From assembly GCA_019248085.1 (NCBI GenBank), contig JAEHHF010000006.1:1-31139 (forward strand): a stretch of DNA of 31,139 bases, in the 5' to 3' direction. The position numbers were made by a program, and so were the translations under genes. This DNA is from Candidatus Dojkabacteria bacterium S2_J21 (GTDB lineage Bacteria > Patescibacteria > Dojkabacteria > SC72). Shown one piece after another: positions 1,346 through 21,834 of the stretch. Every line of letters starts with the position of its first letter. Position 1 is the first letter of the stretch. The notes below the pieces were generated by a model. It saw nothing but the letters and a program-made list of their open reading frames with translations, had not been told where the DNA came from and did not search any database.

Positions 1346-1756
1346 GGGGACGTAAGGCTTTCGACAGGAGTCTGCGTTTAGTTGTCACAAACCGAGGGTT
1401 GTCTCGTTAATCAACGCACAATGATAAGTGTAAAAAACAAAATCGTCGCTTTTGCAGAGAATATTAAAGCAAGTTTGGCTATGCCAAATTTCAACTTTAA
1501 CTTTGCTTAAAGTCTAGCCAATTAAGTTTGACTAGTGTCTTTATCCTTATTCTTAGTTAGGGGTAAAAGATAGTCGTTACTAAGATATGTTATTACTACT
1601 TTGTCGGTAGAGTAGTATGTATGAATATAATTACTGAGTAGAGATATCTTTTTGCTGATCTTTTTAGATATTTCTAACTATACAGGATCAGATATGTTTG
1701 TACATGATGCTAGACAATGCTTATGGACGTGGGTTCAATTCCCACCGTCTCCACCA
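1346..1756 (+). ncRNA. ssrA: tmRNA (transfer-messenger RNA)
   Basis: This RNA rescues stalled ribosomes by acting first as tRNA-Ala and then as mRNA for a degradation tag. The 5' end GGGGACG pairs with CGTCTCC near the 3' end to form a seven-pair acceptor stem, followed by an encoded ACCA. The TGGGTTCAATTCCCA T-arm precedes it. The tag frame runs from about 1430 (GTA AAA AAC AAA) to GCT at 1505-1507, with a TAA stop at 1508-1510. It gives about 26 residues ending MPNFNFNFA, long and ending in FA rather than the common LAA. The exact resume codon is inferred. The partner SmpB is encoded at 18475. The 3' terminal A at 1756 is also the first base of the next gene's likely start. Confidence 0.95.
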
Positions 1757-8399: not shown

Positions 8400-8537
8400 A
8401 TGACAGACAAAACCAAAAGAGCCCTAGGTAATGCCCTTAAGAAAACACCAAGCCCGAAAGTCCTGTTTGGTGTTACTGTAGGAATGATATTAATATTGCT
8501 CACATACATAGCTATCTTACTTCTATCAACGAGATAG
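8400..8537 (+). CDS. 45-residue single-helix membrane peptide
   Basis: A short frame from the ATG at 8400 gives a basic N-terminus (MTDKTKRALGNALKKTPSPK) and one hydrophobic helix (about 21-42). The gene begins 7 bases after endonuclease IV, and its TAG shares a base with the GTG start of the helicase (8537). This tight fit between two genes is the main argument that it is real. No family is recognised. It may simply couple translation across the operon. Confidence 0.6.
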   Translation: MTDKTKRALGNALKKTPSPKVLFGVTVGMILILLTYIAILLLSTR

Positions 8538-11500
8538 TGTCTCAGATTAACCTCAATGAAAACCAACAGCAAGCTGTCCAATATACAGATGGAGACCTTT
8601 TGATTATTGCTGGGGCAGGAACCGGTAAGACCGCAGTTATTACACAAAGAATCTTGTATCTCATTAAGAAATGTAATGTAAAACCATCGGAGATATTGGC
8701 ACTAACGTTTACAGAAAAGGCAGCTGCCGAAATGCAAGAGAGAATAGACAAGGAGATGGAATATGGGTATGAAGAACCCAAGATTTCAACCTTTCATTCA
8801 TTTTGCGATGGGATATTGAGAGAAGGTGGTTACAACATGGGACTTGATGGGGGATATTCACTAATGACTACTGCACAGTCATATATATTTCTTCGCAAGT
8901 ACTACCATGATCTTCCCTTAGACACTCTAAAGCCAAGGGGACAGGTCACCAAAACATTGAATGATATATTGAAACACTTCTCTCGATTGCAAGACGAAGA
9001 TGTCTCCCCAGAAGACTATCTTAAATTTGTTAAGACCATACCAAAGAACACTTTGGAACAGAAAGCAGACCACCAGAAATACAAAGAACTTTCAGAGACA
9101 TACAAGATGTATTCCGATTTGAAGATGCAAGAATCTAAAGTAGATTTTGGAGACCTAATTATTCTTGCATTAAAGCTTTTCAGAGAGAGACCAAATATCC
9201 TTGAGAAATACAGAAACAAGTTTAAATATATTCTTGTAGATGAGTTCCAAGATACCAACTATACCCAAAATGTATTGGTAAATATCCTTACATTAGGGTT
9301 AGAAGGAAAGAAGAGAAATGGGGCTAAGGAAAAGAAAGTTGGGAAACAGAAAAGGCCCCTTCTTACAGTGGTCGGTGATGATGACCAAGCGATTTACAAA
9401 TTTAGAGGGGCCGCCATCTCAAACATTCTTCAGTTTAAGGAAACATATTCAGATGCAAAAGAAGTCGTATTAACAGAGAATTACAGATCGAAACAAGAGA
9501 TACTGGATGCTTCACATACTTTAATTAGCAAGAATAATCCCAATAGGTTGGAAATCACAGAGAAAATAGACAAGAAATTAGTAGCAAAAGCTGTTTTCGA
9601 GAAAGCCAATGGAAATGTAGTAAACCTAATTGCCGCGGGGAATGAAAATGCCGAAGCCGAACAAGTAGTAGAGGAGATTGCAAAGCTTACAGGATTCGGA
9701 GAATATTCGGAACAGGTCTCTACATCAGAGGTTTTTGATGAGAAAGGACAATCTTCTTTTGTTAAAACAGAAAACAAAAAGCAACCATATCGATTCTCTG
9801 ATATTGCCATATTAGTTAGGGCTAATGCTCATTCCGAGCAATTTGTACAAGCACTCCGAAATGCAGGCATTCCATACAAGCTTGGTGGTTCCAGAGGACT
9901 ATACTTTAGACCAGAGATCCAAAATCTCATTGCCTTTCTTAAAGTTTTAGTAGATTACTCTGATGAAATCTCAATGTACAAAATGTTAGCTATGCCGATA
10001 TGGAATCTAACGCCAAGGGAATATATGGATATTAATAGGCTGGCAAGGGAGGAGAGGCTGACGTTATTTGAGGAGTTAGAGAAACTTTGGGATGTGAAAT
10101 TAGGGCAGGAAGAGAAAGTCGACCTAGGAGAGATCAATAACCCAATTATCGAGAAGGTGTTTAGTGCTGAATCCATAGCAGGTGTTACAAATTTCTTAAT
10201 GATTTTGCAGAGTTGTATCCTCAAAGTTAAAGATGCCCGACCTATTACAGAGATATTGTATGAATTTGTGAAAAACAGTGGATACTTAGATTCATTCGTA
10301 AGGGAGGAAACAGCGGATAGTTTGTTCGCAGTCTCAAACATGCAAAAATTCTTTGAGTCGGTCAAAAAGTATGAGAAAGACAACTCAGATACCAATATAT
10401 ATGAATATGTTGATTTCATCGACTATTGTATTGAAGTCGGGGAGTCTCCAGTTGTTGACCAATCGGAGTTGGAAGACTTCAACGCAGTAAATATACTCAC
10501 GGTACACGGATCAAAGGGATTAGAATTCCCAGCAGTATTCTTGGTGAATCTTGTCGCTCAGAGGTTCCCGTCTAAGAATATGAGTGATTCGATTCCAATT
10601 CCTGAGGATCTAATTAAAGAAATGTTAGACAAGAAGATGAGTCCAGAGGAATCGCACATTCAAGAAGAAAGGCGTCTATTCTACGTTGGTGCCACTCGCG
10701 CGAAGGAGAAGCTGTTTCTTTCTGCCGCCAGTTTCTATGGAGATGCGAAGACAAAGAAAAAACCTAGTTTATTCTTGTATGAGATATTGGACAGGGATGT
10801 TCTCGAAGAGTTTAACTTTGAGAAAGGGAAGGTAGGGGTTGATAGTTACGAAGGGAAAGAAGATCTTTCTGTTGTGCCTAGGAATGTAAAAATTGAACTA
10901 ATGAAGAATTTCAGTTATTCACAGCTGGACACATATGAGCTATGTCCAAGAAAATATGAGTATGCATATGTATTACGAGTTCCACAGAAGCCTAATTCGG
11001 CTATGTCATTTGGAACAACCATTCACAATACGATGAAGGATTTCTATACATTGCTTAAGACATCAAAGGAAGGTATCGAGGGAATAGTTGGACAACCGAC
11101 GATGGATGATCTCTTAAGGTTATATAACAATAACTGGGTTCGAGCTGGATATGACAACAGTAAGCATGAAAACATGAAGAAAGAGCAGGGTGAGAAGATG
11201 TTAAGAAGATATTTTGAAAGAATATACTCAAAAGATGAAAGCCCATTAAATTTGGAAGAATCTTTTGTTATGCATTTAGGAGAAAGTACATTCGCAGGGA
11301 AGATAGACCGAATTGACTATGTGGGGGAGGAGGATGGTGTAAAACAAGTTTGTATAGTAGATTACAAAACAGGTAAGGTTAAAAAAGAAGCGGATATTAA
11401 GAAAGACCTGCAATTATCTTTGTATGCGATATTCGTTGAAGAAAAGCTCGGATATAAAGTTGTCAGTGCGCAATATATCTTCCTAGAAGATGGGGTGAAG

Positions 11501-11659
11501 GTCGATGTAGATATTTCTGCCAAACGAAGAGAGAAAGCCAAAGAAAGAATGGTGGAAATTATAGAGAAGATAAAGGATAGAGACTTCCGTGCTCTTCCAG
11601 ACATGTATAAATGCCATGGTTGTGACTATCGTACTGTGTGTGAATTCGCTAAATTGTAA
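8537..11659 (+). CDS. UvrD/AddA-like helicase fused to PD-(D/E)XK Fe-S nuclease
   Basis: A 1040-residue SF1A helicase-nuclease. The helicase part has Walker A GAGTGKTAVITQR (about residue 27), DEFQDTNYTQ (motif II), GDDDQAIYKFRG (motif III), ENYRSKQE (motif IV), LTVHGSKGLEFPAVF (motif V, about 654) and RRLFYVGATRAKEKL (motif VI). The C-terminal 240 residues are a RecB-type nuclease: CPRKYEY (about 803), GTTIHNTM, GKIDRID and VDYKTGK as catalytic Asp/Lys, and a terminal CHGCDYRTVC. The four Cys match the AddB/Cas4-type 4Fe-4S cluster. The expected role is double-strand break end resection or general repair. The start is GTG at 8537; no AddB partner is visible nearby. Confidence 0.93.
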   Translation: MSQINLNENQQQAVQYTDGDLLIIAGAGTGKTAVITQRILYLIKKCNVKPSEILALTFTEKAAAEMQERIDKEMEYGYEEPKISTFHSFCDGILREGGYNMGLDGGYSLMTTAQSYIFLRKYYHDLPLDTLKPRGQVTKTLNDILKHFSRLQDEDVSPEDYLKFVKTIPKNTLEQKADHQKYKELSETYKMYSDLKMQESKVDFGDLIILALKLFRERPNILEKYRNKFKYILVDEFQDTNYTQNVLVNILTLGLEGKKRNGAKEKKVGKQKRPLLTVVGDDDQAIYKFRGAAISNILQFKETYSDAKEVVLTENYRSKQEILDASHTLISKNNPNRLEITEKIDKKLVAKAVFEKANGNVVNLIAAGNENAEAEQVVEEIAKLTGFGEYSEQVSTSEVFDEKGQSSFVKTENKKQPYRFSDIAILVRANAHSEQFVQALRNAGIPYKLGGSRGLYFRPEIQNLIAFLKVLVDYSDEISMYKMLAMPIWNLTPREYMDINRLAREERLTLFEELEKLWDVKLGQEEKVDLGEINNPIIEKVFSAESIAGVTNFLMILQSCILKVKDARPITEILYEFVKNSGYLDSFVREETADSLFAVSNMQKFFESVKKYEKDNSDTNIYEYVDFIDYCIEVGESPVVDQSELEDFNAVNILTVHGSKGLEFPAVFLVNLVAQRFPSKNMSDSIPIPEDLIKEMLDKKMSPEESHIQEERRLFYVGATRAKEKLFLSAASFYGDAKTKKKPSLFLYEILDRDVLEEFNFEKGKVGVDSYEGKEDLSVVPRNVKIELMKNFSYSQLDTYELCPRKYEYAYVLRVPQKPNSAMSFGTTIHNTMKDFYTLLKTSKEGIEGIVGQPTMDDLLRLYNNNWVRAGYDNSKHENMKKEQGEKMLRRYFERIYSKDESPLNLEESFVMHLGESTFAGKIDRIDYVGEEDGVKQVCIVDYKTGKVKKEADIKKDLQLSLYAIFVEEKLGYKVVSAQYIFLEDGVKVDVDISAKRREKAKERMVEIIEKIKDRDFRALPDMYKCHGCDYRTVCEFAKL

Positions 11660-11682: not shown

Positions 11683-12027
11683 ATGAATATTGTAGAAACA
11701 TTCAACAACTTGGTAGCTCAGAAAGCATACGCATCGCTGGGTGCTACTCTTAATGAGAAATTAGGAACTCTCCAGAATACTGTTACAGATGAAAACGACT
11801 TCGTCAAACGTATCACAGAGATAGCAATTCCCCTAAGTGTTATATGTGTTGTACTCCTTTTGGTATACGGAGGCTTTATGCTAATGTCAAGTAAGGGAGA
11901 CCCAGACAAGCTTCAGGAAGCAAAGCAAGTTATCACGAATGCTATAATCGGTTTTGTTGTAGTTTTGTTATGTGTGGCGATACTATTATTAATTTCTAAC
12001 ACCCTAGGGTTAAAGATATATGAATAA
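11683..12027 (+). CDS. VirB2/TrbC-like two-helix membrane protein 1
   Basis: A 114-residue member of the tandem set at 11683-13361. It has a hydrophilic N-terminus of about 45 residues without a clear signal peptide, a first membrane helix (about 47-68), a short loop SSKGDPDKLQEAKQVI and a second helix (about 85-106). The shared motif is a Gly pair, then about 7 residues, then GD-x2-K-x3-A and a second helix starting AI[IV]G. Such small two-helix proteins resemble TrbC/VirB2 pilins of type IV secretion and are common in Patescibacteria. The pilin role is inferred, not shown. Its last 8 bases overlap the next gene. Confidence 0.75.
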   Translation: MNIVETFNNLVAQKAYASLGATLNEKLGTLQNTVTDENDFVKRITEIAIPLSVICVVLLLVYGGFMLMSSKGDPDKLQEAKQVITNAIIGFVVVLLCVAILLLISNTLGLKIYE

Positions 12028-12325
12028 CCTATTGGCAGTTAACATCTCGGATATATCAAGCTGGTTAAATACAGGGCCGTATAGTGATGTTAATACATTA
12101 GTTAATGGGAAAATTATTACAGCAATAAACTTCTTCGTCCTATTCTCTGCTGTAATAGCTGTAATAATGTTGATAGTTGCGGGCTATACATTTATCACTT
12201 CTGCAGGGGATGCCGACAAGGTCGACAAAGCGAGCAAAACGCTTACTGCGGCTATCGTTGGAATGGTAGTTGTGTTTGTTGCAAAGATATTAGTACAGTA
12301 CATATTGAGTATTGTTGGACAATAG
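12020..12325 (+). CDS. VirB2/TrbC-like two-helix membrane protein 2
   Basis: 101 residues with no cleavable signal: a polar N-terminal region of about 33 residues, helix 1 (about 35-58), loop TSAGDADKVDKASKTL and helix 2 (about 75-98). The loop is very close to that of proteins 3 and 5 in the set. The ATG lies inside the end of gene 1 (8-base overlap), which indicates coupled translation. The set probably arose by duplication, and its members differ mainly at the N-terminus. Confidence 0.75.
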   Translation: MNNLLAVNISDISSWLNTGPYSDVNTLVNGKIITAINFFVLFSAVIAVIMLIVAGYTFITSAGDADKVDKASKTLTAAIVGMVVVFVAKILVQYILSIVGQ

Positions 12326-12327
12326 AG

Positions 12328-12356
12328 TTGCATGTTGGGGTTTCTTTTTATATAAT
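12328..12356 (+). promoter_or_regulatory. Strong promoter before pilin-like gene 3
   Basis: TTGCAT (12328-12333), a 17-base spacer and TATAAT (12351-12356) form a near-consensus vegetative promoter. Transcription would start near 12363, with a leader of about 25 bases. It lets genes 3-5 be expressed apart from genes 1-2. Confidence 0.65.
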
Positions 12357-12387
12357 TAGTACATAAATTAAATATATCTATTGTTCT

Positions 12388-12741
12388 ATGAAGACTACAA
12401 AAATATTAGCAACAGCATCTTCTGTGTTCTCAGGGTTGTTTTTGACTTCTGCAGCTTATGCTCAGTCAGCAAATGATTACCTAGGTAAAATCACAGTTGG
12501 TAAAGATGGTGATCTTATGACCTTAATCTATAGCTTGATCAACTGGTCAATTGGTATCGCAGCTTTGGTGTGTGTAGTTGTATTGATCTTCAGTGGATAT
12601 AAATATATAACTGCAGCTGGTGATGAGAATAAAGTAGAAAGTGCTACAAAAACTCTAACATTCGCAATAATCGGACTAGTGGTCTGCTTCATAGCAGTAA
12701 TCTTGGTAAGGTTTGTATTGCAGAACTTGATAAAGGTCTAA
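12388..12741 (+). CDS. VirB2/TrbC-like two-helix protein 3 with signal peptide
   Basis: 117 residues. It starts with a typical cleavable signal (MKTTKILATASSVFSG, ending SAAYAQS, with cleavage likely after AYA). Then come a short polar region, helix 1 (about 52-73), loop TAAGDENKVESATKTL and helix 2 (about 88-112). Signal peptide plus two helices with a short GD-x2-K loop is the architecture of VirB2/TrbC propilins. It has its own strong promoter, so it may be the major subunit. That is inference. Confidence 0.8.
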   Translation: MKTTKILATASSVFSGLFLTSAAYAQSANDYLGKITVGKDGDLMTLIYSLINWSIGIAALVCVVVLIFSGYKYITAAGDENKVESATKTLTFAIIGLVVCFIAVILVRFVLQNLIKV

Positions 12742-12768
12742 TAGCTACTGATTTTAAAACCTTCAAAT

Positions 12769-13050
12769 ATGGATATGATAGTGGATTTGGGCCCTTTAAA
12801 TGGTACTAGTTTTGAAAGCTTGTCAGATTTTTTGTATTTCGTAATTAATTACGCTATTACAATATCTGCATTAGTAGCTGTTGGGTCTTTGATACTATCT
12901 GGGTTCAGATATCTCCTCTCCTTTGGAGATGAGAAGAAGATAAAGGTAGCTACAAGTTCTTTAGTTTATTCGTTGATAGGGTTGGGACTTGTATTTATAG
13001 CTCCAACAATTATAGAATTTGTTATTAATCAATTACTAAGTATAAAATGA
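12769..13050 (+). CDS. VirB2/TrbC-like two-helix membrane protein 4
   Basis: The shortest member, 93 residues. A polar N-terminus of about 20 residues is followed by helix 1 (about 24-46), loop LSFGDEKKIKVATSSL and helix 2 (about 66-88). The loop is more diverged than in its neighbours. It ends in TGA, overlapping the next ATG as ATGA. This stop shows that UGA is not a Gly codon here. An alternative start is two codons downstream at 12775. Confidence 0.7.
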   Translation: MDMIVDLGPLNGTSFESLSDFLYFVINYAITISALVAVGSLILSGFRYLLSFGDEKKIKVATSSLVYSLIGLGLVFIAPTIIEFVINQLLSIK

Positions 13051-13361
13051 AAATAGCTAATAAAATATTTTTCTCTTTACTTCCATTTCTAATAGCGTCT
13101 CCTGTATTAGCGGAGGAAGATATTCCTACAATAGGTGACCTAGGAAATGTCGTTGACAAGGTTGTTAGTTTAATACTCCCAATTGCAGGTATCGTATGTG
13201 TTGTATTCATAATAATAGGTGGATATATGTGGATTACATCTGCGGGTGATCCCTCAAAGATTAAACAGGCGCAAGGGACATTAACATGGTCGATTATTGG
13301 ACTTGTTGTAATCCTGATGGCTACAGCCATTATCAGTGTAGTTACAAAGTTCGTAGGGTAA
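13047..13361 (+). CDS. VirB2/TrbC-like two-helix protein 5 with signal peptide
   Basis: 104 residues. A signal peptide (MKIANKIFFSLLPFLIASPVLA, written here as MKIANKIFFSLLPF plus LIASPVLA) has cleavage likely after VLA. Helix 1 is at about 40-63, then loop TSAGDPSKIKQAQGTL and helix 2 at about 78-102. It overlaps gene 4 by 4 bases and ends 36 bases before the SpoIID-type gene. Like protein 3 it has a cleavable signal; proteins 1, 2 and 4 lack one, so the set may contain two functional classes. Confidence 0.78.
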   Translation: MKIANKIFFSLLPFLIASPVLAEEDIPTIGDLGNVVDKVVSLILPIAGIVCVVFIIIGGYMWITSAGDPSKIKQAQGTLTWSIIGLVVILMATAIISVVTKFVG

Positions 13362-13386
13362 GAAAAACCTCCTCCTGAGTATAGTG

Positions 13387-13392
13387 TATAAT
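13387..13392 (+). promoter_or_regulatory. -10 box 5 bases before the SpoIID-type gene
   Basis: TATAAT ends 5 bases before the ATG at 13398, predicting a leaderless mRNA. No matching -35 is seen. Confidence 0.5.
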
Positions 13393-13397
13393 GGGAT

Positions 13398-15239
13398 ATG
13401 GTCAAAAAGCCCCAACTTTTTCTACAATTATGTTTGGCAATTTTCTTAAGTATATATACCTTTTCTTTGTTTACATACCCAGTATATTCTGACGAAGCGT
13501 CTGATCTGCAACAGCAGATAGATCAGAAAAATCAAGAACTATTACAAAAACAAACAACACTTTCAAGTATAGAGGCAAAGATTAAAGAGATTAGTGGGAG
13601 TAACTATTCCGTTAGTCAGAAGATAAACTTGATTAATGCAGAGATTACAAAATTGAATGATAGTATTGCTCTGACAGATGGAGCATTAAATGCGAAGATT
13701 AAAGAGATAGAGGATAAGCAGGCTCTATTAGAGGCAAAGAAAACAGAGATGGATAGAATCTCTGGTGATCTGTATATGCAATCTAGGTATAGGATGGCAA
13801 CATTCTTCCTTTCTGGTGATAGCTGGGATACTTTGGTTAAGGAGTTCTTCATAAAGAAGAATACACTTTCCATATTAAAAAATGATGTTGAACAGATAAA
13901 TGGAGAGTTTAGTAGTTTGGCTGAGAGTAAGGCTGAGTTAGAAGGGCAGAAGTCTGTATTAGATGCTCAAAAGAAGGATATGGATGATTCATATGCATTG
14001 TTAGCTGCAGAGAAGGCAAAATTACAGAGAGAATTGAACAGTCAATATAGCAGCAAAAATAGTCTGAGTTCTCAGATCGGAAATCTAACCAAAGAAATCT
14101 CTCAACTACAACAATTCCTTTTAGTGGCAAAATCCGGAGGAACAATCATTGATGCAAACACAGTTCCCAACAGCTCTTCTGATCCAGCATCATCTTTAGC
14201 ATATTTTAGGAGCAATGCCCCAGGTGGTTCTTTTGCAGTCTTTGCTTTTGGTGCATACACGCATAGGAATGGTATGAGCCAATGGGGAGCAAGAGCGAGG
14301 GCTGAGGCTGGTCAGACATATGAACAAATCTTGGCATTTTACTATCCAGGGAAGACATTCAGAACTGGTACTGTTGTAAATAAATCTACCGGAGTAAGCG
14401 AAGCAATTATGACAAATATTTCTACAACAACATATGGAACTCTCAACTTCGAAGATGATTACCTATTAAGGCTTAATGAGATGCCAGAAAGTTGGGATAT
14501 GCAAGCATTGAAAGCCCAAGTAATAATTGCCAGAACCTTCGCTATCAACTATACAAATAACGGACGATCTTCAATCTGTACAACAGAATCTTGTCAGGTA
14601 ATTGGTGATGGACAAAAGACAGGTGCCTGGGCGGATGCGGTGCGATCTACAAGGGGAATTGTGCTTACTGACTCTGCGGGGAAGGTCTTCTCTGCCCAGT
14701 ACGCAGCAGTGCATGGAGGGTGGGGTAATGGAACTGGTTGGGATACTACAACTGGAACCGGAGACTATGCTAACTGGACTGGCGATGCATGGGAAAGCAT
14801 CTCAGGTGTTAGCTGGTTCTACAAAACATGGTTTAGAAAGGGATATGCTTTAAGCGGTAATGATTGTGGCCATACACCATGGCTATCTAACGCCGAAATG
14901 TCAGATATCTTGAATGCATACCTACTTTGGATTAGTAACGGAAAGACATCCAGTGATCCAAGGATAGTATCGACAGATGTTACTAGGTGTTGGGGACAAG
15001 CCGCAAATCCGTACAGTATGACAGAGTTAAGAAACATAGTATCTAATCCAGTCACATCAGTTTACAGTGCCGTCTCTGCGAATTCTGGAGGGACGACTTC
15101 GACAGTCTCATTTAATACAAATAGGGGTATTCTCGCTATCTCTGGAACAGATTTCAAAGCTATATATAATATGAGAGCTCCGAGTTATTTGAGTATTCCT
15201 CAAAATAGCTTCATAAATATTAATATTGAGTACAAGTAA
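13398..15239 (+). CDS. Secreted coiled-coil protein with SpoIID/LytB domain
   Basis: A 613-residue exported protein: signal peptide (about 1-30), a long coiled coil (about 33-235) like those of CwlO/EnvC-type cell-wall regulators, then a SpoIID-type domain. SpoIID enzymes are lytic transglycosylases acting on peptidoglycan glycan strands. NGMSQWGARARAEAG and ILAFYYPGKTF appear first (about 290-315), followed by LNEMPESW and ALKAQVIIARTFA (about 360-380, with the putative catalytic Glu). In B. subtilis SpoIID the GMSQ segment comes last, so this is the permuted order. Four Cys follow the catalytic region. In the cluster it could locally open the wall for an envelope complex (inference). Confidence 0.85.
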   Translation: MVKKPQLFLQLCLAIFLSIYTFSLFTYPVYSDEASDLQQQIDQKNQELLQKQTTLSSIEAKIKEISGSNYSVSQKINLINAEITKLNDSIALTDGALNAKIKEIEDKQALLEAKKTEMDRISGDLYMQSRYRMATFFLSGDSWDTLVKEFFIKKNTLSILKNDVEQINGEFSSLAESKAELEGQKSVLDAQKKDMDDSYALLAAEKAKLQRELNSQYSSKNSLSSQIGNLTKEISQLQQFLLVAKSGGTIIDANTVPNSSSDPASSLAYFRSNAPGGSFAVFAFGAYTHRNGMSQWGARARAEAGQTYEQILAFYYPGKTFRTGTVVNKSTGVSEAIMTNISTTTYGTLNFEDDYLLRLNEMPESWDMQALKAQVIIARTFAINYTNNGRSSICTTESCQVIGDGQKTGAWADAVRSTRGIVLTDSAGKVFSAQYAAVHGGWGNGTGWDTTTGTGDYANWTGDAWESISGVSWFYKTWFRKGYALSGNDCGHTPWLSNAEMSDILNAYLLWISNGKTSSDPRIVSTDVTRCWGQAANPYSMTELRNIVSNPVTSVYSAVSANSGGTTSTVSFNTNRGILAISGTDFKAIYNMRAPSYLSIPQNSFININIEYK

Positions 15240-15286
15240 ATCTTGTCCTGTCACTCATTCTATGTTATCGTTATACCATCAAACAT

Positions 15287-15907
15287 ATGACTACTAAACA
15301 AGAATCAAACAAAATACCAAAGAGATTTAGAAATCTAAAAAGATCATTCATGGACAATATCACCCTGAGAAATGATCATTCCTTCAATTCTTTCCCAAAG
15401 GGATTGAAATTTCATGGGCAAGAACAGGAAGAGCAAGTTATCCTGATTATCCGATCTCACTGGATTGTATATGTACCTCAGTTACTCCTAGCAATATTGG
15501 TTTTTGTATTACCATGGATATTAGGACTAATCTCTTCGGCTATTTTTCAAAGTACAGCAATATTCATCTCCTTGTTAGCAACATCTATTTTGATTGGGGC
15601 TAGTATCCTAGTATCTGCAATCATTAAATGGTATTACAATGTAGATATGATTACGGATCAGAGAGTGGTAGATTTAGATTTTCCAAATGTAATGGCTCAT
15701 ACAATGTCGGAAGCACAGCTAGAGCGTATTGAAGATGTAACACAGAAGCAATTAGGACTACTAGGAAGCGTTTTTGATGTTGGTACAGTATATATTCAAA
15801 CTGCAGGGTCCTCGCAAAACATAGAATTCACGAACATTCCAAGACCAAGAGATGTTCAAGAAATATTGTCAGATCTGTTAGAATCAAAAGATAAAGGAGA
15901 AATATAA
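15287..15907 (+). CDS. Membrane protein with bacterial PH domain
   Basis: 206 residues. A polar N-terminus of about 60 residues is followed by two membrane helices (about 64-86 and 88-112) and a C-terminal PH-like domain of the DUF304/bPH2 type. Visible family features are WYYNVDMITDQRVVDLD, the LERIEDVTQKQLGLLGSVFDVG stretch (read in two parts, LERIEDVTQKQ and LGLLGSVFDVG) and GTVYIQTAG. Such proteins are membrane-bound and of unclear role. A TACCAT -10 ends 7 bases before the ATG. The stop overlaps the next ATG, and an AAAGGAG ribosome-binding site for that gene lies in its last codons. Confidence 0.8.
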   Translation: MTTKQESNKIPKRFRNLKRSFMDNITLRNDHSFNSFPKGLKFHGQEQEEQVILIIRSHWIVYVPQLLLAILVFVLPWILGLISSAIFQSTAIFISLLATSILIGASILVSAIIKWYYNVDMITDQRVVDLDFPNVMAHTMSEAQLERIEDVTQKQLGLLGSVFDVGTVYIQTAGSSQNIEFTNIPRPRDVQEILSDLLESKDKGEI

Positions 15908-16179
15908 TGAATAGCGATATAAACAATATATTGGATAATTTAGGAAAGAATCCTTTCGGAGGACTAGGATTTAATGCTGCAAGCTTCCTTAAGTTACCAA
16001 TAGTACTAATCCTTGTGGGCAACGTCCTCTTTGCAGCTTTACTATTCCTACGGGTAAGAATACTCGCTGACACATTTGAATCTGCTAATAGCACCCTAAT
16101 TAGAGCTATTCTCTTCATATATCTCATTGTCACAATAATAGGTAGTATAATCGCTGTACTATTTCTTTTAGTCGGATAA
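15907..16179 (+). CDS. Small two-helix membrane protein, 90 residues
   Basis: No family is recognised. A Gly/Asn-rich start (NNILDNLGKNPFGGLGFN) is followed by two membrane helices (about 30-50 and 65-88) joined by a short loop. Unlike many genes here it has a textbook ribosome-binding site, AAAGGAG at 15893-15899, 7 bases before the ATG. It is wedged between the PH-domain gene (1-base overlap) and the PP2C-propeller gene (2-base gap), so it is clearly part of that operon. Its size recalls the two-helix set at 11683-13361, but it lacks their GD-x2-K loop. Confidence 0.7.
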   Translation: MNSDINNILDNLGKNPFGGLGFNAASFLKLPIVLILVGNVLFAALLFLRVRILADTFESANSTLIRAILFIYLIVTIIGSIIAVLFLLVG

Positions 16180-16181
16180 TT

Positions 16182-18467
16182 ATGAAAATCACTGCTCAAC
16201 AGTTCATCTCGAACGATAAGGAGAAGGGTACCTTCGTTACCATATTCAAGCATTATGCGGATAAATCAACGAAGACCACAGAAAAGGAAGGAGAGATTCA
16301 CTGCCTTCTTTCCATTCTTGGTAATACATCTCTCCCAGCTGAAAGAGTAAGTAAATTCGTATGGGACGGTATCCTAGATGGATATATATATTCCAACAGC
16401 AAGAGTACCAACGAATCGCTCAAGGATGGGATTACAGAGGGTGTAAAGAAGCTGAAAAGCTTGATGAGGAATGATAAGTCCCTCGAAGATTTAGGAATCA
16501 ATGTTAACTTCGTACTCATTGCACAGAGAAAAGAAGGTCTGTACATTGGTAATTTAGGTGAAAACGAAGTCTTTGTTTTTAAGGAAGGAAAGTTTGTAAA
16601 TATCACTGAAATATTAGGAAAGAGTAAGGCCAGCACAGCAGGAGTTGCGCTTAAAGAGGGCGATATCTTAGTGGTTTCTACGGTCGGAGTCATAACTCGA
16701 ACATTGAATGAGTTAGGAAAACTAACCAATATCGAAGCTGTTGTAGAGAGTTTGAAAGAAATAGGAAAGACATTAGGTGGCAATCAGGGTCTCATATTCT
16801 TCACATATGAAGATGAGAATGCACCAGTAACCAAACCAAATCCCGAGAGCCCCGAATCTTTACAGAAACAGTATGAGTCTGCAAAGCCGATTCAGTTACT
16901 TCCGGAAACTCCGGCTACCCAAGAGTCACCTGTTAAGAAACCAAGAATTAAGCTCCCAGGGAAGAGTCTAAATCTTCATGGCTTGGATAAATATGCTACG
17001 GAAGCAAAGTCATTCTTTAACAAAGTGAAGCATGCTGTAGTTGTATTGTTTAGAAAAATTGCTGACAAATACAAGCTTTTCTCTAAGAATATAGCTTCCA
17101 AACTTGCAGCTACGTTTGGGAACAAGAAATGGTTCAAGAAGGTCGCCTCCAGAGTCTCAGAAGTAAAGATCAATAGTTCTAACTATACTGGCAGGGGAAT
17201 GAGGATAGATGGTTACAGGACAAGAGATGTCCGTGCAAAGAGAATAAGGTTCGTACTCCTAATTGTTGTAGTAATAGTCCTACTGGCATTGGGGATAAAT
17301 TTAACGATTAAAGCGAGAAGGGCAAGTATCATACACAGGCAGGCAACCCTAGCTTTTACAAATGTTGATACTTTAATCAAAAAAGCAGAGAGTATGTCTA
17401 CATCAGATAAAGACTCTACAGAAGTTGCAGTATTCCAGGCGAAGAAGGCTTTGTCCGAATTGCCAACAACCATTTCTGAGAAAGATTTAGCCTTGAAAAC
17501 AGGTTTTGATATCCGAATCCTTGCGGTTGAAGATTTCCTTTACAAACGTACGGGAGTTTCTGAGACGGACGGGAAAATGACCAGTTTCGTAGACTCAAGA
17601 ATATCATTTGGTGATGGATCAGAACCGACAGATATCGAGGTATACTCAGATGATTCTGGAAATGAATATCTACTCGTTACAGACAAAGGTCTGAATGCAG
17701 TATTTAGAGTTTCTTTGTACGACAAGACATCTCAAAGGTTGGTAGATACGAGCAGTCTTCTGAAAGATCCACAATATATCTCTATGGGTAACGAGGGGGT
17801 CTTCGTATTTGATAGTAAGGTAGGTGTGTTAAAGGCACCATATGATACAGAGAAATGGTTTGGAACGTTTGTAACTCTTTCTGGATTAAGTAGGGAGAAT
17901 ATTAAACCTAAAGATATCGGAGAGTTCATAGTACTAACAGAAACGGATAATGTGTACTTACTAGCGAAGGATGATAACTCGATTCTCAAATCAGTATTCT
18001 CATACGAGAACAGGTATGGTTTGTACTACAAATATATAACAGATGATAGGTTCGCCAACGCGAATGATATATTAGCAGATTTGAGTGTATATGTACTTAC
18101 ACAGGATACACCAGGCCTAATTAGATATAGTTATGACTATGTTGAACAGAAACAGACAGAGAATCCTCTAACTATCAGTGGTGTAGATGGCGATTTGGGT
18201 AATTTAACCAAGGGTTTTACCAGGAGTAGCTTGGAGGATGGCCTATTTGTATTCGATCAAATTGCTAAAAGGTTTGTAATGTTTGAAAAGCCACAAGAGG
18301 GTGGGGGTGCGGTATTACATCCCAACGAGGTTCTATTGAAAAAACAGTATGTATACAGAGGGTCAAAAGGGGAGGTGTGGAATAATGTTAAAGATTTCGT
18401 AGTAGATTCAGCAAACTCTACAATGTATATACTCGACGGCTCGGTTATTTGGAAGGTCATGTTATAA
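16182..18467 (+). CDS. PP2C-like (pseudo)phosphatase with membrane helix and outer propeller-like domain
   Basis: 761 residues in three parts. Residues 1-215 follow the PP2C fold pattern: IGNLGENEVFVFKEGKFVNIT matches the family GDS-R-Y strand, and LKEGDILVVSTVGVIT matches the L-x-GD-LLLCSDG strand. The metal-binding Asp residues of PP2C are replaced (GENE for GDSR, STVG for SDG), so catalysis is unlikely. A Pro-rich linker and a basic region lead to one membrane helix (about 355-375). Residues 420-761 consist of repeated short strands and look like a beta-propeller outside the cell. This is the layout of an inside-out scaffold or sensor. The TAA stop lies inside the smpB -10 box. Confidence 0.7.
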   Translation: MKITAQQFISNDKEKGTFVTIFKHYADKSTKTTEKEGEIHCLLSILGNTSLPAERVSKFVWDGILDGYIYSNSKSTNESLKDGITEGVKKLKSLMRNDKSLEDLGINVNFVLIAQRKEGLYIGNLGENEVFVFKEGKFVNITEILGKSKASTAGVALKEGDILVVSTVGVITRTLNELGKLTNIEAVVESLKEIGKTLGGNQGLIFFTYEDENAPVTKPNPESPESLQKQYESAKPIQLLPETPATQESPVKKPRIKLPGKSLNLHGLDKYATEAKSFFNKVKHAVVVLFRKIADKYKLFSKNIASKLAATFGNKKWFKKVASRVSEVKINSSNYTGRGMRIDGYRTRDVRAKRIRFVLLIVVVIVLLALGINLTIKARRASIIHRQATLAFTNVDTLIKKAESMSTSDKDSTEVAVFQAKKALSELPTTISEKDLALKTGFDIRILAVEDFLYKRTGVSETDGKMTSFVDSRISFGDGSEPTDIEVYSDDSGNEYLLVTDKGLNAVFRVSLYDKTSQRLVDTSSLLKDPQYISMGNEGVFVFDSKVGVLKAPYDTEKWFGTFVTLSGLSRENIKPKDIGEFIVLTETDNVYLLAKDDNSILKSVFSYENRYGLYYKYITDDRFANANDILADLSVYVLTQDTPGLIRYSYDYVEQKQTENPLTISGVDGDLGNLTKGFTRSSLEDGLFVFDQIAKRFVMFEKPQEGGGAVLHPNEVLLKKQYVYRGSKGEVWNNVKDFVVDSANSTMYILDGSVIWKVML

Positions 18468-18468
18468 T
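18463..18468 (+). promoter_or_regulatory. smpB -10 box containing the upstream stop codon
   Basis: TATAAT ends 6 bases before the smpB ATG (18475). Its inner TAA at 18465-18467 is the stop of the preceding gene. Confidence 0.55.
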
Positions 18469-18474
18469 ATCCGT

Positions 18475-18918
18475 ATGAAAATTGTTAACAAAAAAGCATC
18501 TTTTAACTATGAAATATTAGAAACCTTCGAAGCAGGGGTTGTATTAACTGGTGCCGAAGTAAAATCTATAAAATCTGGACGTGCAAATATCGGAGATGCA
18601 TATGTTAAGGTCATAAATAATGAGATATGGCTTGTTAATGCAGATATACCTAAATATCAATTTACTACGGATAAGAACTATGATGCTGCAAGATCTAAGA
18701 AGCTATTAATAAATAGAGACCAACTAGCCAAATTAGAGAGTAAAATGAAGCAAGGAAACCTTACATTAATTCCTGTTAGCGTATATACTGTTAGAGGATT
18801 AATAAAGGTAGAAGTGGGACTGGCAAAGGGTAGGAGGTACCATGAGAAGAGGGAAAGAGAGAAGGAAAGGGACCTAGATAGAGACTTACATCTTGAAAAT
18901 AGAAAATATGTGGTATAA
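18475..18918 (+). CDS. smpB: SsrA-binding protein SmpB
   Basis: A partner of tmRNA in ribosome rescue; it binds the tRNA-like domain and reads the empty mRNA channel. 147 residues, normal length. Visible features are the OB-fold start NKKASFNYEILETFEAGVVL, GAEVKSIKSGRANIGDAYV, and the basic C-terminal tail KGRRYHEKREREKERD, which becomes a helix in the mRNA channel. The tail is richer in Arg/Glu than the usual GKKLHDKRE form. It follows the PP2C-propeller gene and has its own -10 box. It lies 17 kb from ssrA. Confidence 0.96.
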   Translation: MKIVNKKASFNYEILETFEAGVVLTGAEVKSIKSGRANIGDAYVKVINNEIWLVNADIPKYQFTTDKNYDAARSKKLLINRDQLAKLESKMKQGNLTLIPVSVYTVRGLIKVEVGLAKGRRYHEKREREKERDLDRDLHLENRKYVV

Positions 18919-18919
18919 T
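18914..18919 (+). promoter_or_regulatory. -10 box containing the smpB stop codon
   Basis: TATAAT contains the smpB stop TAA (18916-18918) and lies 11 bases before the next ATG. An overlapping TATTAT (18919-18924) ends 6 bases before that ATG and would give a leaderless message. Confidence 0.5.
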
Positions 18920-18930
18920 ATTATAGGACT

Positions 18931-19239
18931 ATGAGTAATATGACGGACATAGGAACAATTGAAAAGATAGGTAGCCAAGTTTCTATGGAAACGCCTACCA
19001 CTGTAGAGAATTTACTTCCTTCAACTTCTGTTGACCCAAGCGAGACCCAATCTCCCGATGAAACCTCTGAAACAACAGTATCTGTTGTCCCTCCTGCTAC
19101 AGTACAAGAACAACCAAGCTCAGAGCAAGCTTTTTCTCCAATAATAGGTTACCCCCCAATGACAAACTTGGCAAACCTTAACACGTTACAGGTACAAGCC
19201 ATAATTAATAAAGTAAAAGGGTTACCAGTAGAAGATTAA
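18931..19239 (+). CDS. Disordered acidic/Thr-Pro-rich protein, 102 residues
   Basis: No family is recognised. The composition is low in complexity: Thr, Ser, Pro, Glu and Val dominate residues 8-70, and only the last 30 residues (from PIIGYPPMTNLANL to the end) look able to fold into a helix. There is no membrane segment. It lies between smpB and the VirB4-like ATPase. A conserved C-terminal helix behind a disordered arm is typical of adaptors, but this is a guess. Confidence 0.6.
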   Translation: MSNMTDIGTIEKIGSQVSMETPTTVENLLPSTSVDPSETQSPDETSETTVSVVPPATVQEQPSSEQAFSPIIGYPPMTNLANLNTLQVQAIINKVKGLPVED

Positions 19240-19302
19240 CTCTCTTTGATATATATACCCCTGTGTGATATTCTTTAGACATAAGATTGTCATACTGCCA
19301 TT

Positions 19303-21834
19303 ATGAATTCTAATGAATTCACATACTCACAAGTAGTCGGTCCAGTACCAAATACTAATCAAGATACAGAGATTGAAACTGGTTCCAATGTAACATACCC
19401 CAAAGATACATATAACGATTTCTATGGTCAAAAAACCATAAATATCCCATGGGGATGGATCATTTTCGTTCTCGTCATTATTGGTGGATTAATAGGGGCG
19501 TATTTTGTGATTAGAAAAAAACTAGTGCATAAGGATAGAAATGAGAAAGCAAACGATGGTGTATTAATGGAAGTGAGAATGCCGAGGGATAACGAGGTCG
19601 AGATAGGCGTGGCAGAGCAGATGTTTGCGAACCTTTACAGTATAGGAGGAAAAGGAGATGGTTTGGCAGAAAATTTTACAGTAGGTAATGCTGTAAGCTT
19701 CGAAATAGTAGGATTACCGGGTGAGATAAGGTTTTTTGTACATTGTCCTAAAAAATTTGCGGAATTAGTAGAAAAACAGATATTAGGATCGTATCAAGAT
19801 GCGGATGTCTCAATCGTAAATGAATACAATATATTCGCACCACACACTCAGTCATCATATGCAAGGTTGATACTAGATGAAGAACCCTATGCGCCTTTGC
19901 GAGTTGCAGAAAACTTCACAGGAGATCCTTTGGCAAATGTACTAAGTACTCTGAGTAAGATGTCTGATAACGAGGGAGTTGTTGTTCAGTTAATAGTTAC
20001 TCCAACAGACTCGAAATGGCAGAAAAATGGTTCTAAATTTGTTCAGAAGGTTGAAAGTAACAATTCGGATTCTGAGAAAAAGAAAATAAGCATTTCGCAG
20101 GAGAAGCTACAAGGTATAGGAAAAAAGGTTGCGAAACCAGGCCTAGTAGGTGAGATCCGCATTATTACGAGTGCTCCTGATCAAGCAATAGCAAAAATGC
20201 ACCTTGATAATATCATTGGTGCTTTTGATCAGTACAATAATCCGGGTATTAACAAGCTTAAAAAGATTAAGATTGAAAAGAAAGATGAAAAGAAATTTAT
20301 ATATGATGTAGTGTATCGAAGAACACCTGAGTATGCAGGCTCAGTATTCAATGTAGAAGAGCTAGCAGCGTTGTATCATTTCCCGAGCAAAAACATCTCT
20401 ACACCAAATATTCATTGGCTGCTTTCCAGAGAATTCATAGCAGATAACTCAATTAGTTCAGATATCAAATCAAAGGATACAATATGGATAGGTAACAATG
20501 TGTTTAGAGGAAAGAAGAAGATAATATGCTATCAGCGTGATGACAGAAGAAGGCATTCGTACATATTGGGGCAAACAGGTACTGGAAAATCTTGGCTAAT
20601 GAAGAGGATGATATTGCAAGATATCTACAACGGAGACGGTGTCTGCTTCATAGATCCTCATGGTCAGACAGCGGAAGAGATTATTGACCTTATTCCTCCG
20701 GAAAGAGCAGAGGATGTAATCTATCTTGATGCGGGTGATTTCGAACGACCATTTGGTCTAAATATCATGGAATTTTACAATGAGCAGCATAAACACCAAA
20801 TCGTGAATAGCTTCATTGCTTTACTCATAAGGCTCTTTGACCCTCATAACCAGGGTTATGTAGGCCCAGCTATGCAACAGGCTGTTAGAAACTCTATGCT
20901 AACGGCTATGTCGAAGGAAGGTTCTACATTAATTGAGGTTGTTAGAATGTTGCAGGACGAGGAATGGGTCATGAGCTATTGGCTTCCAATGGTTAAGGAT
21001 GAATTAGTTAGAAGGTATTGGACAGACCAGGTTGCAAAGACAGATAAGAAGACTAAGTCAGAGTCTTTGACATACTTCATCTCAAAGTTTGATAAGTTTA
21101 CAACAAACTTGGCAGTAAGGAATATCATAGGCCAATCAAAATCATCCTTTGATTTTAGAGATGTGATGGATAACCAAAAAATCTTGATTATAAATCTTTC
21201 AAAAGGTTCCATTGGTGAGGATAATATGTCTTTCATCGGACTACTCTTAGTCCAGAAAATGTTGGCTGCCGCTTTAAGTAGGGAAAATATTCCAGAGAAA
21301 GAGAGGAAGGACTTCTTCTTCTATGCAGATGAGTTCCAGAACTTTGCTACAGAAGAATTCTCCTCTATCTTGTCAGAAGCTAGAAAGTACAGACTGGATT
21401 TAACGATTGCACACCAATATATTGGACAGTTACCCGAAGAGATAAGGAATGCAGTATTTGGTAATGTAGGATCATTATTTATAACCAGGTGTAGCGCTGA
21501 AGATGCTAAATTCTTAGAAACTCAGTTTGAACCATACATAAAGGCGGGAGATATAGTCAACCAAGCATCAGGACATTGGTATGTGAAGTTGTTAAATAAT
21601 GGTACATACCCAGCACCATTCTCGTTGGATAGTTTCTATGGTACGCGTTATCCTGAGAGTGGGTTCGATCTTCCTGAGCATAAGGAAGTATCGGATATTA
21701 TTAAGAAGTACTCTAGAGCAAAGTATGGTAGGGACGTGGCTGTGATTAATGAGGATATCAAGATTAGATCACAACTGGATAGGAAACCTGAGCCAGCTCC
21801 GGCTAATCCGGCTTTCCCACCAATGGGTTTTTAG
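19303..21834 (+). CDS. Membrane-tethered VirB4/TraD-like AAA ATPase
   Basis: 843 residues. One N-terminal membrane helix (about 48-70, WGWIIFVLVIIGGLIGAYFV) is followed by a central domain (about 85-380) of a type seen with type IV secretion ATPases. The motor domain has Walker A LGQTGTGKSWL (about 422) and Walker B DFFFYADEFQNF (about 675), plus a downstream IAHQYIGQL motif typical of the HerA/FtsK-VirD4 superfamily. The protein is expected to form hexamers that move DNA or protein at the membrane. CATACT ends 6 bases before the ATG. With the five pilin-like proteins upstream it suggests a reduced conjugation-like or secretion machine. No relaxase is present, so transfer of its own DNA is not implied. 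Confidence 0.85.
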   Translation: MNSNEFTYSQVVGPVPNTNQDTEIETGSNVTYPKDTYNDFYGQKTINIPWGWIIFVLVIIGGLIGAYFVIRKKLVHKDRNEKANDGVLMEVRMPRDNEVEIGVAEQMFANLYSIGGKGDGLAENFTVGNAVSFEIVGLPGEIRFFVHCPKKFAELVEKQILGSYQDADVSIVNEYNIFAPHTQSSYARLILDEEPYAPLRVAENFTGDPLANVLSTLSKMSDNEGVVVQLIVTPTDSKWQKNGSKFVQKVESNNSDSEKKKISISQEKLQGIGKKVAKPGLVGEIRIITSAPDQAIAKMHLDNIIGAFDQYNNPGINKLKKIKIEKKDEKKFIYDVVYRRTPEYAGSVFNVEELAALYHFPSKNISTPNIHWLLSREFIADNSISSDIKSKDTIWIGNNVFRGKKKIICYQRDDRRRHSYILGQTGTGKSWLMKRMILQDIYNGDGVCFIDPHGQTAEEIIDLIPPERAEDVIYLDAGDFERPFGLNIMEFYNEQHKHQIVNSFIALLIRLFDPHNQGYVGPAMQQAVRNSMLTAMSKEGSTLIEVVRMLQDEEWVMSYWLPMVKDELVRRYWTDQVAKTDKKTKSESLTYFISKFDKFTTNLAVRNIIGQSKSSFDFRDVMDNQKILIINLSKGSIGEDNMSFIGLLLVQKMLAAALSRENIPEKERKDFFFYADEFQNFATEEFSSILSEARKYRLDLTIAHQYIGQLPEEIRNAVFGNVGSLFITRCSAEDAKFLETQFEPYIKAGDIVNQASGHWYVKLLNNGTYPAPFSLDSFYGTRYPESGFDLPEHKEVSDIIKKYSRAKYGRDVAVINEDIKIRSQLDRKPEPAPANPAFPPMGF

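Follow-up and report, generated by a model that had tools for sequence, protein, structure and literature searches.

A conserved row of pilin, wall-enzyme and coupling-type ATPase genes in Candidatus Dojkabacteria: a candidate second locus of the Patescibacteria type IV secretion system

Introduction

Most Patescibacteria carry a type IV secretion system (T4SS) on the chromosome, and such systems with arrays of VirB2 pilins have already been described (Quinonero-Coronel 2025, PMC12102498; Wang 2023, PMC10633639) and are also treated in a review (PMC12857230). In the single strain examined so far, the T4SS gene cluster is reported as essential (PMC10633639, PMC12102498); Southlakia is described as having a series of essential pilins within its T4SS cluster (PMC10633639), and a pilin gene is reported near virB4 in 1,135 of the 1,948 assemblies holding both (PMC12102498). 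VirD4-like ATPases are described as abundant in Patescibacteria, their belonging to the T4SS being left open in that account (PMC12102498). Here we analyze a row of 12 genes at positions 11683–21834 of a 31,139-nucleotide stretch of Candidatus Dojkabacteria bacterium S2_J21 (contig JAEHHF010000006.1; the whole stretch is called the window below), in which five VirB2-like pilin genes stand together with genes for a SpoIID/LytB-type wall enzyme, a membrane protein with a PP2C fold and an NHL-type propeller (PP2C-NHL), and an ATPase of the coupling-protein family.

The locus and its counterparts in relatives resemble the described systems in their PF18895 VirB2-like pilin arrays, a VirB4-TrsD-PrgI core, a chromosomal location, and VirD4 homologues that lie mostly away from virB4. 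The described systems usually lack a relaxase, and none was matched among the scanned window proteins. The difference is that the window locus unites a pilin array, a SpoIID enzyme and a VirD4-like ATPase, away from the VirB4 core. The terms SpoIID, PP2C, phosphatase and DUF5657 do not occur in the main text of PMC12102498 (its figures and supplements lie outside this term search). Similarly, the row is not named in the literature on SpoIID, PP2C or NHL together with Patescibacteria or Dojkabacteria, as far as the titles and the beginnings of abstracts among the matches listed go; figures, supplements and subscription papers may show it. Among those matches, and on the same basis, PMC12102498 and the review PMC12857230 are the two that deal with this T4SS. 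The window is known from one contig, and statements on the rest of the genome are taken from relatives (G and L numbers below are our handles for genomes and loci).

Results

The 12 genes lie on one strand, with intergenic gaps of −8 to 63 bases, and the row and the window have the same G+C content, 0.380 (Table 1). A first-pass annotation of this DNA had listed five tandem VirB2/TrbC-like proteins, a coiled-coil SpoIID-type wall enzyme, a PH-domain membrane protein, a two-helix protein, a PP2C-like domain joined through the membrane to a propeller, a disordered protein and smpB. All of these were borne out: all five pilins pass the gathering score of the PF18895 T4SS_pilin family (35.3–53.6 versus 26.6 bits); the wall enzyme, the PH-domain protein and smpB match their families (Table 1); the two-helix protein is a real gene of the DUF5657 family; the PP2C-propeller architecture is given by the predicted model, Foldseek and one transmembrane helix; and the 102-residue protein looks disordered, as judged from composition and not by a predictor. 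The same annotation had seen no relaxase and no VirB6, VirB8, VirB9 or VirB10, and consistent with this, none was matched in a Pfam scan of 23 window proteins (subsets were also scanned with other libraries; some small open reading frames (ORFs) lie outside the scan, and neither a genome-wide relaxase search nor a VirB8 profile search was made).

The ATPase at the 3′ end of the row, as judged from sequence profiles, is a member of the coupling-protein family and not a VirB4. Its profile search matched TrwB (2e-06) and DotL (1e-05), and no VirB4 chain was matched at E<=1; the separate VirB4 family of the relatives, by comparison, matches 4ag5 at 2.6e-66. In structure comparisons, the core fold fits both the VirB4 and the coupling families, and the whole model aligns along its length with VirB4 chains, loosely (root-mean-square deviation 13–15). 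A hydrophobic helix lies at residues 52–70 (a helix at 50–84 in the predicted model). Thus, of the "membrane-tethered VirB4-like ATPase" in the first-pass annotation, the tether stands, as one N-terminal transmembrane helix, and the family does not, which was its main error; the statement that no coupling set is present is wrong because the ATPase itself is of the coupling-protein family (PF10412; TrwB and DotL profile matches). Compared with TrwB, VirD4 and DotL, the window ATPase has one transmembrane helix and a ∼300-residue N-terminal domain before the motor domain, and no relaxase partner was seen among the scanned window proteins. It is predicted to deliver T4SS substrate. Its closest relatives come from records titled Candidatus Dojkabacteria, Patescibacteria group bacterium or simply "bacterium", with L001 showing 90 percent identity over 843 residues. 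As a separate observation, the ATPase is two adjacent ORFs in the draft contig of L011 (5677-8186), and its N-terminal and motor parts are separate neighboring ORFs in L030, L032, L037, L039, L042, L045 and L046, which are from other lineages.

We found 46 related loci. Five related Dojkabacteria-like loci are of sufficient length for the whole set (L003, L004, L005, L007 and L009), and each of them keeps the same gene order, the DUF5657 gene of L007 being detected with a purpose-built profile only; L010 differs in having a 1231-residue gene between PP2C-NHL and smpB. For a class-wide view, we surveyed 57 genomes from the class of G007. A PF18895 match was present in 54 and an ATPase family match in all 57, of the window type (>700 bits) in 53 by hand count; G019 and G064 have only another ATPase paralogue, and G040 and G052 have ATPase pieces. 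One ATPase neighborhood per genome, of ∼4 to 22 kb, was scanned with profiles, and a second, overlapping stretch was added for G033 and G036, whose pilins lie ∼24–26 kb from the ATPase. Part of the regions had been placed to take in known nearby pilins and the others were centered on the ATPase, and the profiles, having been built iteratively from the same class, may over-call. With these settings, the 57 neighborhoods held PP2C-NHL (47), smpB (45), pilins (41), SpoIID (40), a XerC-type recombinase (32), bPH_2 (31), an SMC-like protein (16), a metallophosphoesterase (16), DUF5657 (15) and UvrD (14). The careful count for pilins is 40 of 57, the pilin of G022 being seen by our own profile only, with no PF18895 match. 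Pilin, SpoIID, PP2C-NHL and ATPase genes occurred together in 36 of the 57. Contig ends fall inside the row or shortly past it in G012, G024, G046, G048, G057, G060, G061 and G063, so that the true co-occurrence numbers may be higher; no pilin was found in the fetched stretch of G028, G029, G038 or G050. By our rough estimate, chance alone would put a given array into a ∼20-kb stretch of a 0.8-Mb genome in a few percent of cases. The scatter of these genes in relatives, which the first-pass annotation had named as the finding that would speak against it, was therefore not what the survey returned.

Some candidates arising from the survey were rejected. A joint loss of pilins and ATPase in G019, G022 and G064 (no PF18895 match, VirB4 kept) was dropped: these genomes have no smpB match either, and the region may thus just be missing from the drafts. 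A gene with three transmembrane helices between the pilins and SpoIID (L002, L003, L004, L009, L117 and L145), considered as VirB6, is a diacylglycerol kinase in L009, the sole one scanned (PF01219, 114.1 bits). Two extra genes in other lineages (L116, L124 and others) were considered as machine parts; in L116, again the sole one scanned, one encodes a metallophosphoesterase and the other an SMC/Rad50-like ATPase, and they were kept as neighbors. We note that a metallophosphoesterase and a Rad50-like ATPase with two transmembrane helices lie between pilins and SpoIID in L116 (4963-8144), L124, L114, L125 and others.

In relatives, VirB4 is encoded with PrgI and a TrsD-like gene at another locus; 13 genomes carry VirB4 on the contig that also holds the ATPase, and there ∼26 to 430 kb separate the two (by hand subtraction). 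In eight close genomes (G001–G007 and G009), the PF18895 matches lie in the window-type array or on a separate 7–10-kb contig, which may or may not continue the array (it holds all the matches in G006 and G009 and three of seven in G001), with none seen next to VirB4. If VirB4 in these genomes uses pilins, the array pilins are therefore candidates. G014, whose record is titled Levyibacteriota, has VirB4, TrsD-like and PrgI genes with five PF18895 matches no more than 8 kb away, and in G034, pilins stand beside a second, weaker VirB4 match. As a side observation, L102 (G011:C1:42000-61500) holds two VirB4-type ATPases, a pilin, a polytopic protein with eight transmembrane helices, and PrgI and TrsD-like genes in one locus.

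The five pilins are, on sequence comparison, position-specific orthologues and not variable copies, which is new here. Across 12 Dojkabacteria-like loci (the window and 11 others), 54 of 56 pilins best match the window pilin of equal position; L143 and L146 contribute one exception each, in both of which the runner-up scores closely and the position in the order is recovered by the tree. The tree groups pilin 1 (support 0.998), pilin 4 (0.996), pilin 2 (0.952) and pilin 5 (0.895), with pilin 3 as the paraphyletic remainder; L009 and L146 each have a duplicate of pilin 3, and the pilins of L143 number four. The window pilins are 28–44 percent identical to each other over the aligned part. Overall, they look like specialized subunits retained from the ancestor of these species.

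The PP2C-NHL protein combines a PP2C fold (residues ∼1–210), one transmembrane helix (∼358–376) and a six-bladed NHL-type propeller (∼456–761). The PP2C assignment comes from Foldseek (tPphA, 9.3e-09; PstP, 1.5e-08), the VIA-align rows being taken up by the propeller. There was no Pfam match at E<=1, and in NCBIfam a Stp1-type PP2C model scored 13.2 bits, far below the cut-off. DGxG and SDG, which we take to be the metal-binding motifs of PP2C phosphatases, are largely missing: DGxG was found in none of 25 and none of 37 aligned proteins, and the string SDG in two of 25, neither at the aligned place of the motif, and in none of the 37 in the second alignment. In 40 further loci, counting any position in the protein, the DGxG string occurs in two and the SDG string in one. 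The protein is a probable pseudophosphatase receptor. The 24 aligned proteins from the class are 15–42 percent identical to that of the window. In PknD of Mycobacterium, the sensor domain goes with a kinase, in place of which the window protein has a PP2C fold without the metal motifs; the sequence match to PknD is not significant (E 0.23). A PP2C-NHL protein is present in 146 of 192 genomes of the phylum; searching proteins with the class-wide alignment gave 60 hits, of which one was new, and does not decide its presence outside the phylum. The 40 PP2C-NHL loci examined across the phylum (L173–L212) have smpB in 12, SpoIID, bPH_2 and DUF5657 in three and pilins in two; profiles for VirB4, TrsD, PrgI and the ATPase matched in none of them. 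Use of PP2C-NHL as a marker of the T4SS was dropped for this reason, 38 of the 40 loci being without a pilin nearby. No study of a PP2C-NHL pseudophosphatase is named in the titles and beginnings of abstracts among the matches listed for NHL or PP2C with Patescibacteria or Dojkabacteria.

A small protein before the coupling ATPase, often with a C-terminal tryptophan motif, is new here. An ORF lies between smpB and the ATPase in 44 of the 45 class loci having both, that in G023 and G051 being probably a different gene. The motif, taken as the simple pattern (S/T/A/G/K)..W..hydrophobic, is found at the C terminus in 25 of the 44, and a tryptophan outside the pattern in five more (G011, G032, G033, G036 and G039); the window's own protein is without it and gave no Pfam hit at E<=0.05. 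In 32 loci of several classes, a small ORF lies directly before the ATPase in 19, with C-terminal parts that differ by group (classed by eye; L013–L032 included), and an unrelated ORF or none in the other 13. We suggest that it may be an adaptor for the coupling ATPase or the first of its substrates.

In the wall enzyme, the SpoIID/LytB domain is preceded by a coiled-coil stretch, which presumably recalls EnvC and PcsB, and wall cleavage is predicted from the family. Like the VirB1-type lytic enzymes, it is a predicted wall-cutting enzyme encoded beside pilins; it differs from them in being of the SpoIID/LytB family, with no VirB1 family match. smpB, a class-wide neighbor of the row, is probably a bystander.

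The genes flanking the row are ordinary or housekeeping genes: a SpoU methylase, two ABC transporters and an AP-endonuclease-like protein on the 5′ side, and a XerC-type (Xer) recombinase, DivIC, an FtsH-type peptidase and PolA on the 3′ side, with tRNA-Ile 52 bases 3′ of the ATPase gene. The UvrD helicase/nuclease gene is a neighbor in some relatives as well (14 of 57 class loci), and no part in a machine is claimed for it. PADLOC returned general likeness to UvrD, HerA and the "mad8" ATPase and a weak coiled-coil match. The scan for promoter-like sites (35 versus 48.8 expected) and terminators (8 versus 8.2 expected) was uninformative.

Table 1. Features of the row and of its surroundings in the window (scores in bits; pLDDT, predicted local distance difference test)
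Feature	Position	Strand	Evidence and remarks
Pilin 1, VirB2-like, two transmembrane helices	11683..12027	+	PF18895 36.3
Pilin 2	12020..12325	+	PF18895 35.3
Pilin 3, signal-peptide-like N terminus (by eye)	12388..12741	+	PF18895 53.6
Pilin 4	12769..13050	+	PF18895 39.7
Pilin 5, signal-peptide-like N terminus (by eye)	13047..13361	+	PF18895 53.4; TrbC/VirB2 PF04956 32.4; both above cut-off
Coiled-coil SpoIID/LytB-type wall enzyme, N-terminal hydrophobic helix	13398..15239	+	PF08486 49.8 (cut-off 23); TIGR02669 109.6 (cut-off 83.3)
bPH_2 membrane protein, two transmembrane helices	15287..15907	+	PF03703 23.1 (cut-off 22)
DUF5657 small membrane protein	15907..16179	+	PF18901 31.9 (cut-off 25)
PP2C-fold/NHL-propeller protein	16182..18467	+	Model pLDDT 80.7; Foldseek, VIA-align; transmembrane prediction
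smpB	18475..18918	+	PF01668 165.2
Small disordered-looking protein, 102 residues	18931..19239	+	Positional counterparts in relatives; directly 5′ of ATPase
Coupling-protein-family (VirD4/TrwB/DotL-like) ATPase, one N-terminal transmembrane helix	19303..21834	+	PF10412 22.7 (cut-off 20.5); model pLDDT 82.5
UvrD helicase with PD-(D/E)XK nuclease domain	8537..11659	+	Pfam; ends 23 bases before pilin 1
tmRNA gene	1346-1756		Same window as smpB

Discussion

On balance, we lean cautiously toward the row being a pilus, wall-opening and coupling locus that forms the second half of the known chromosomal T4SS of Patescibacteria, which would be split in two in this class. We infer function throughout, and likewise the union of the two loci in one machine with its steps of pilus assembly, wall opening, substrate feeding and signaling. 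The other locus would supply PrgI/VirB3, the TrsD-like protein and VirB4, the inner-membrane motor, and the five specialized VirB2-type pilins would build a filament or conduit; the SpoIID-type enzyme would cut glycan locally so that the filament passes the wall, and the coupling-protein ATPase would feed substrate to the channel, with the small protein perhaps as its adaptor or first substrate. PP2C-NHL would be a membrane sensor, its outer propeller binding something outside or in the wall and its inner dead phosphatase domain relaying this. We read the row as one half of a split T4SS because of G014, where a pilin array beside VirB4, TrsD-like and PrgI genes provides a bridge between the two loci, and because of the published pilin genes near virB4. 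The first-pass annotation had proposed a minimal T4SS-like apparatus specific to these cells. That it is T4SS-related and conserved in the class holds; because the ATPase is a coupling protein and relatives have a separate VirB4 with PrgI and a TrsD-like protein, it is not a minimal, stand-alone T4SS. The Patescibacteria T4SS with VirB2 arrays has, moreover, been published (PMC12102498), and the PP2C-propeller protein is not confined to the set.

Several observations weigh against the split-T4SS explanation. The VirB4, TrsD and PrgI profiles had no match at E<=1e-3 in the 57 ATPase neighborhoods, with positive controls matched. At least five genomes (G011, G012, G031, G043 and G051) have a further pilin no more than 5 kb from VirB4, and an array of the window type may therefore not serve that VirB4. 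VirB6 (PF04610) had no match above cut-off in 18 genomes; a polytopic 337-residue protein that adjoins the pilin near VirB4 in G011 has no Pfam family match and may be VirB6. VirB6 is reported to be scarce in Microgenomatia, perhaps through divergence (PMC12102498). In Southlakia, the T4SS cluster is described as having no recognizable coupling protein (PMC10633639), and a distant coupling-protein homologue as non-essential (PMC12102498). Finally, there is no pilin near the PP2C-NHL gene in 38 of the 40 phylum loci and no VirB4 in any of the 40; that this gene lies mostly away from T4SS genes weakens the reading of the row as one machine.

One alternative is that the row is a conserved neighborhood and not one machine, in which the pilins, and perhaps the ATPase, belong to a T4SS, and SpoIID, bPH_2, DUF5657, PP2C-NHL and smpB serve the envelope and housekeeping and are co-transcribed in reduced genomes. 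The wide distribution of PP2C-NHL in the phylum and the company that it keeps there (most often smpB) fit this, as do the XerC-type recombinase, DivIC, FtsH-type peptidase and PolA genes flanking the row and the finding that, outside the close group, the ATPase lies mostly in other neighborhoods (L016–L046, among the matches listed). However, pilins, SpoIID, PP2C-NHL and ATPase remain united in 36 of the 57 class neighborhoods despite the low identity of the PP2C-NHL proteins, and we regard this alternative as rather unlikely, if the most serious of those considered. The distance from VirB4, the lack of VirB4 matches around the ATPase, the separate pilins beside VirB4 and the loose full-length alignment of the ATPase model with VirB4 chains would also suit an independent, VirB4-free pilus or transport machine with a coupling-like ATPase driving the pilins. 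In its economy, such a machine would presumably resemble the Ced system of archaea. The Ced system is mentioned in the introduction of PMC12102498. Against this stand the sequence family of the ATPase, the G014 array beside VirB4, as is published for other Patescibacteria (PMC12102498), and the absence of any VirB6-like protein recognized by Pfam in the row, so that we consider it distinctly improbable. A shade less probable again is a class-specific contact-sensing injection device, with five non-interchangeable pilins in an ordered hetero-oligomeric filament that a coupling-type ATPase drives or feeds in the absence of VirB4, gating by an outer NHL propeller that reads host contact via the dead phosphatase, and the small protein as first delivered substrate or adaptor. 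A remnant of a conjugative element, brought to mind by T4SS-family genes beside a tyrosine recombinase, is very improbable: the class-wide conserved position among housekeeping genes largely refutes it, the recombinase resembles a chromosomal Xer gene in being a conserved neighbor (32 of 57 loci), row and window have the same G+C content, and no relaxase was matched in the scanned window proteins (a genome-wide relaxase search was not made).

The findings bear on several questions. High variability within pilin arrays has been described and suggested as a possible aid in adapting to host strains (PMC12102498); positional orthology does not support fast pilin variation, at least here, and speaks against the suggested host-directed variation and for a filament of specialized subunits. 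The class-wide tie of one VirD4-like ATPase to a pilin array makes the T4SS membership of such ATPases testable, and PP2C-NHL, a widespread probable pseudophosphatase, may act as a general surface sensor. The T4SS is among the leading candidates for the means by which these epibionts affect their hosts.

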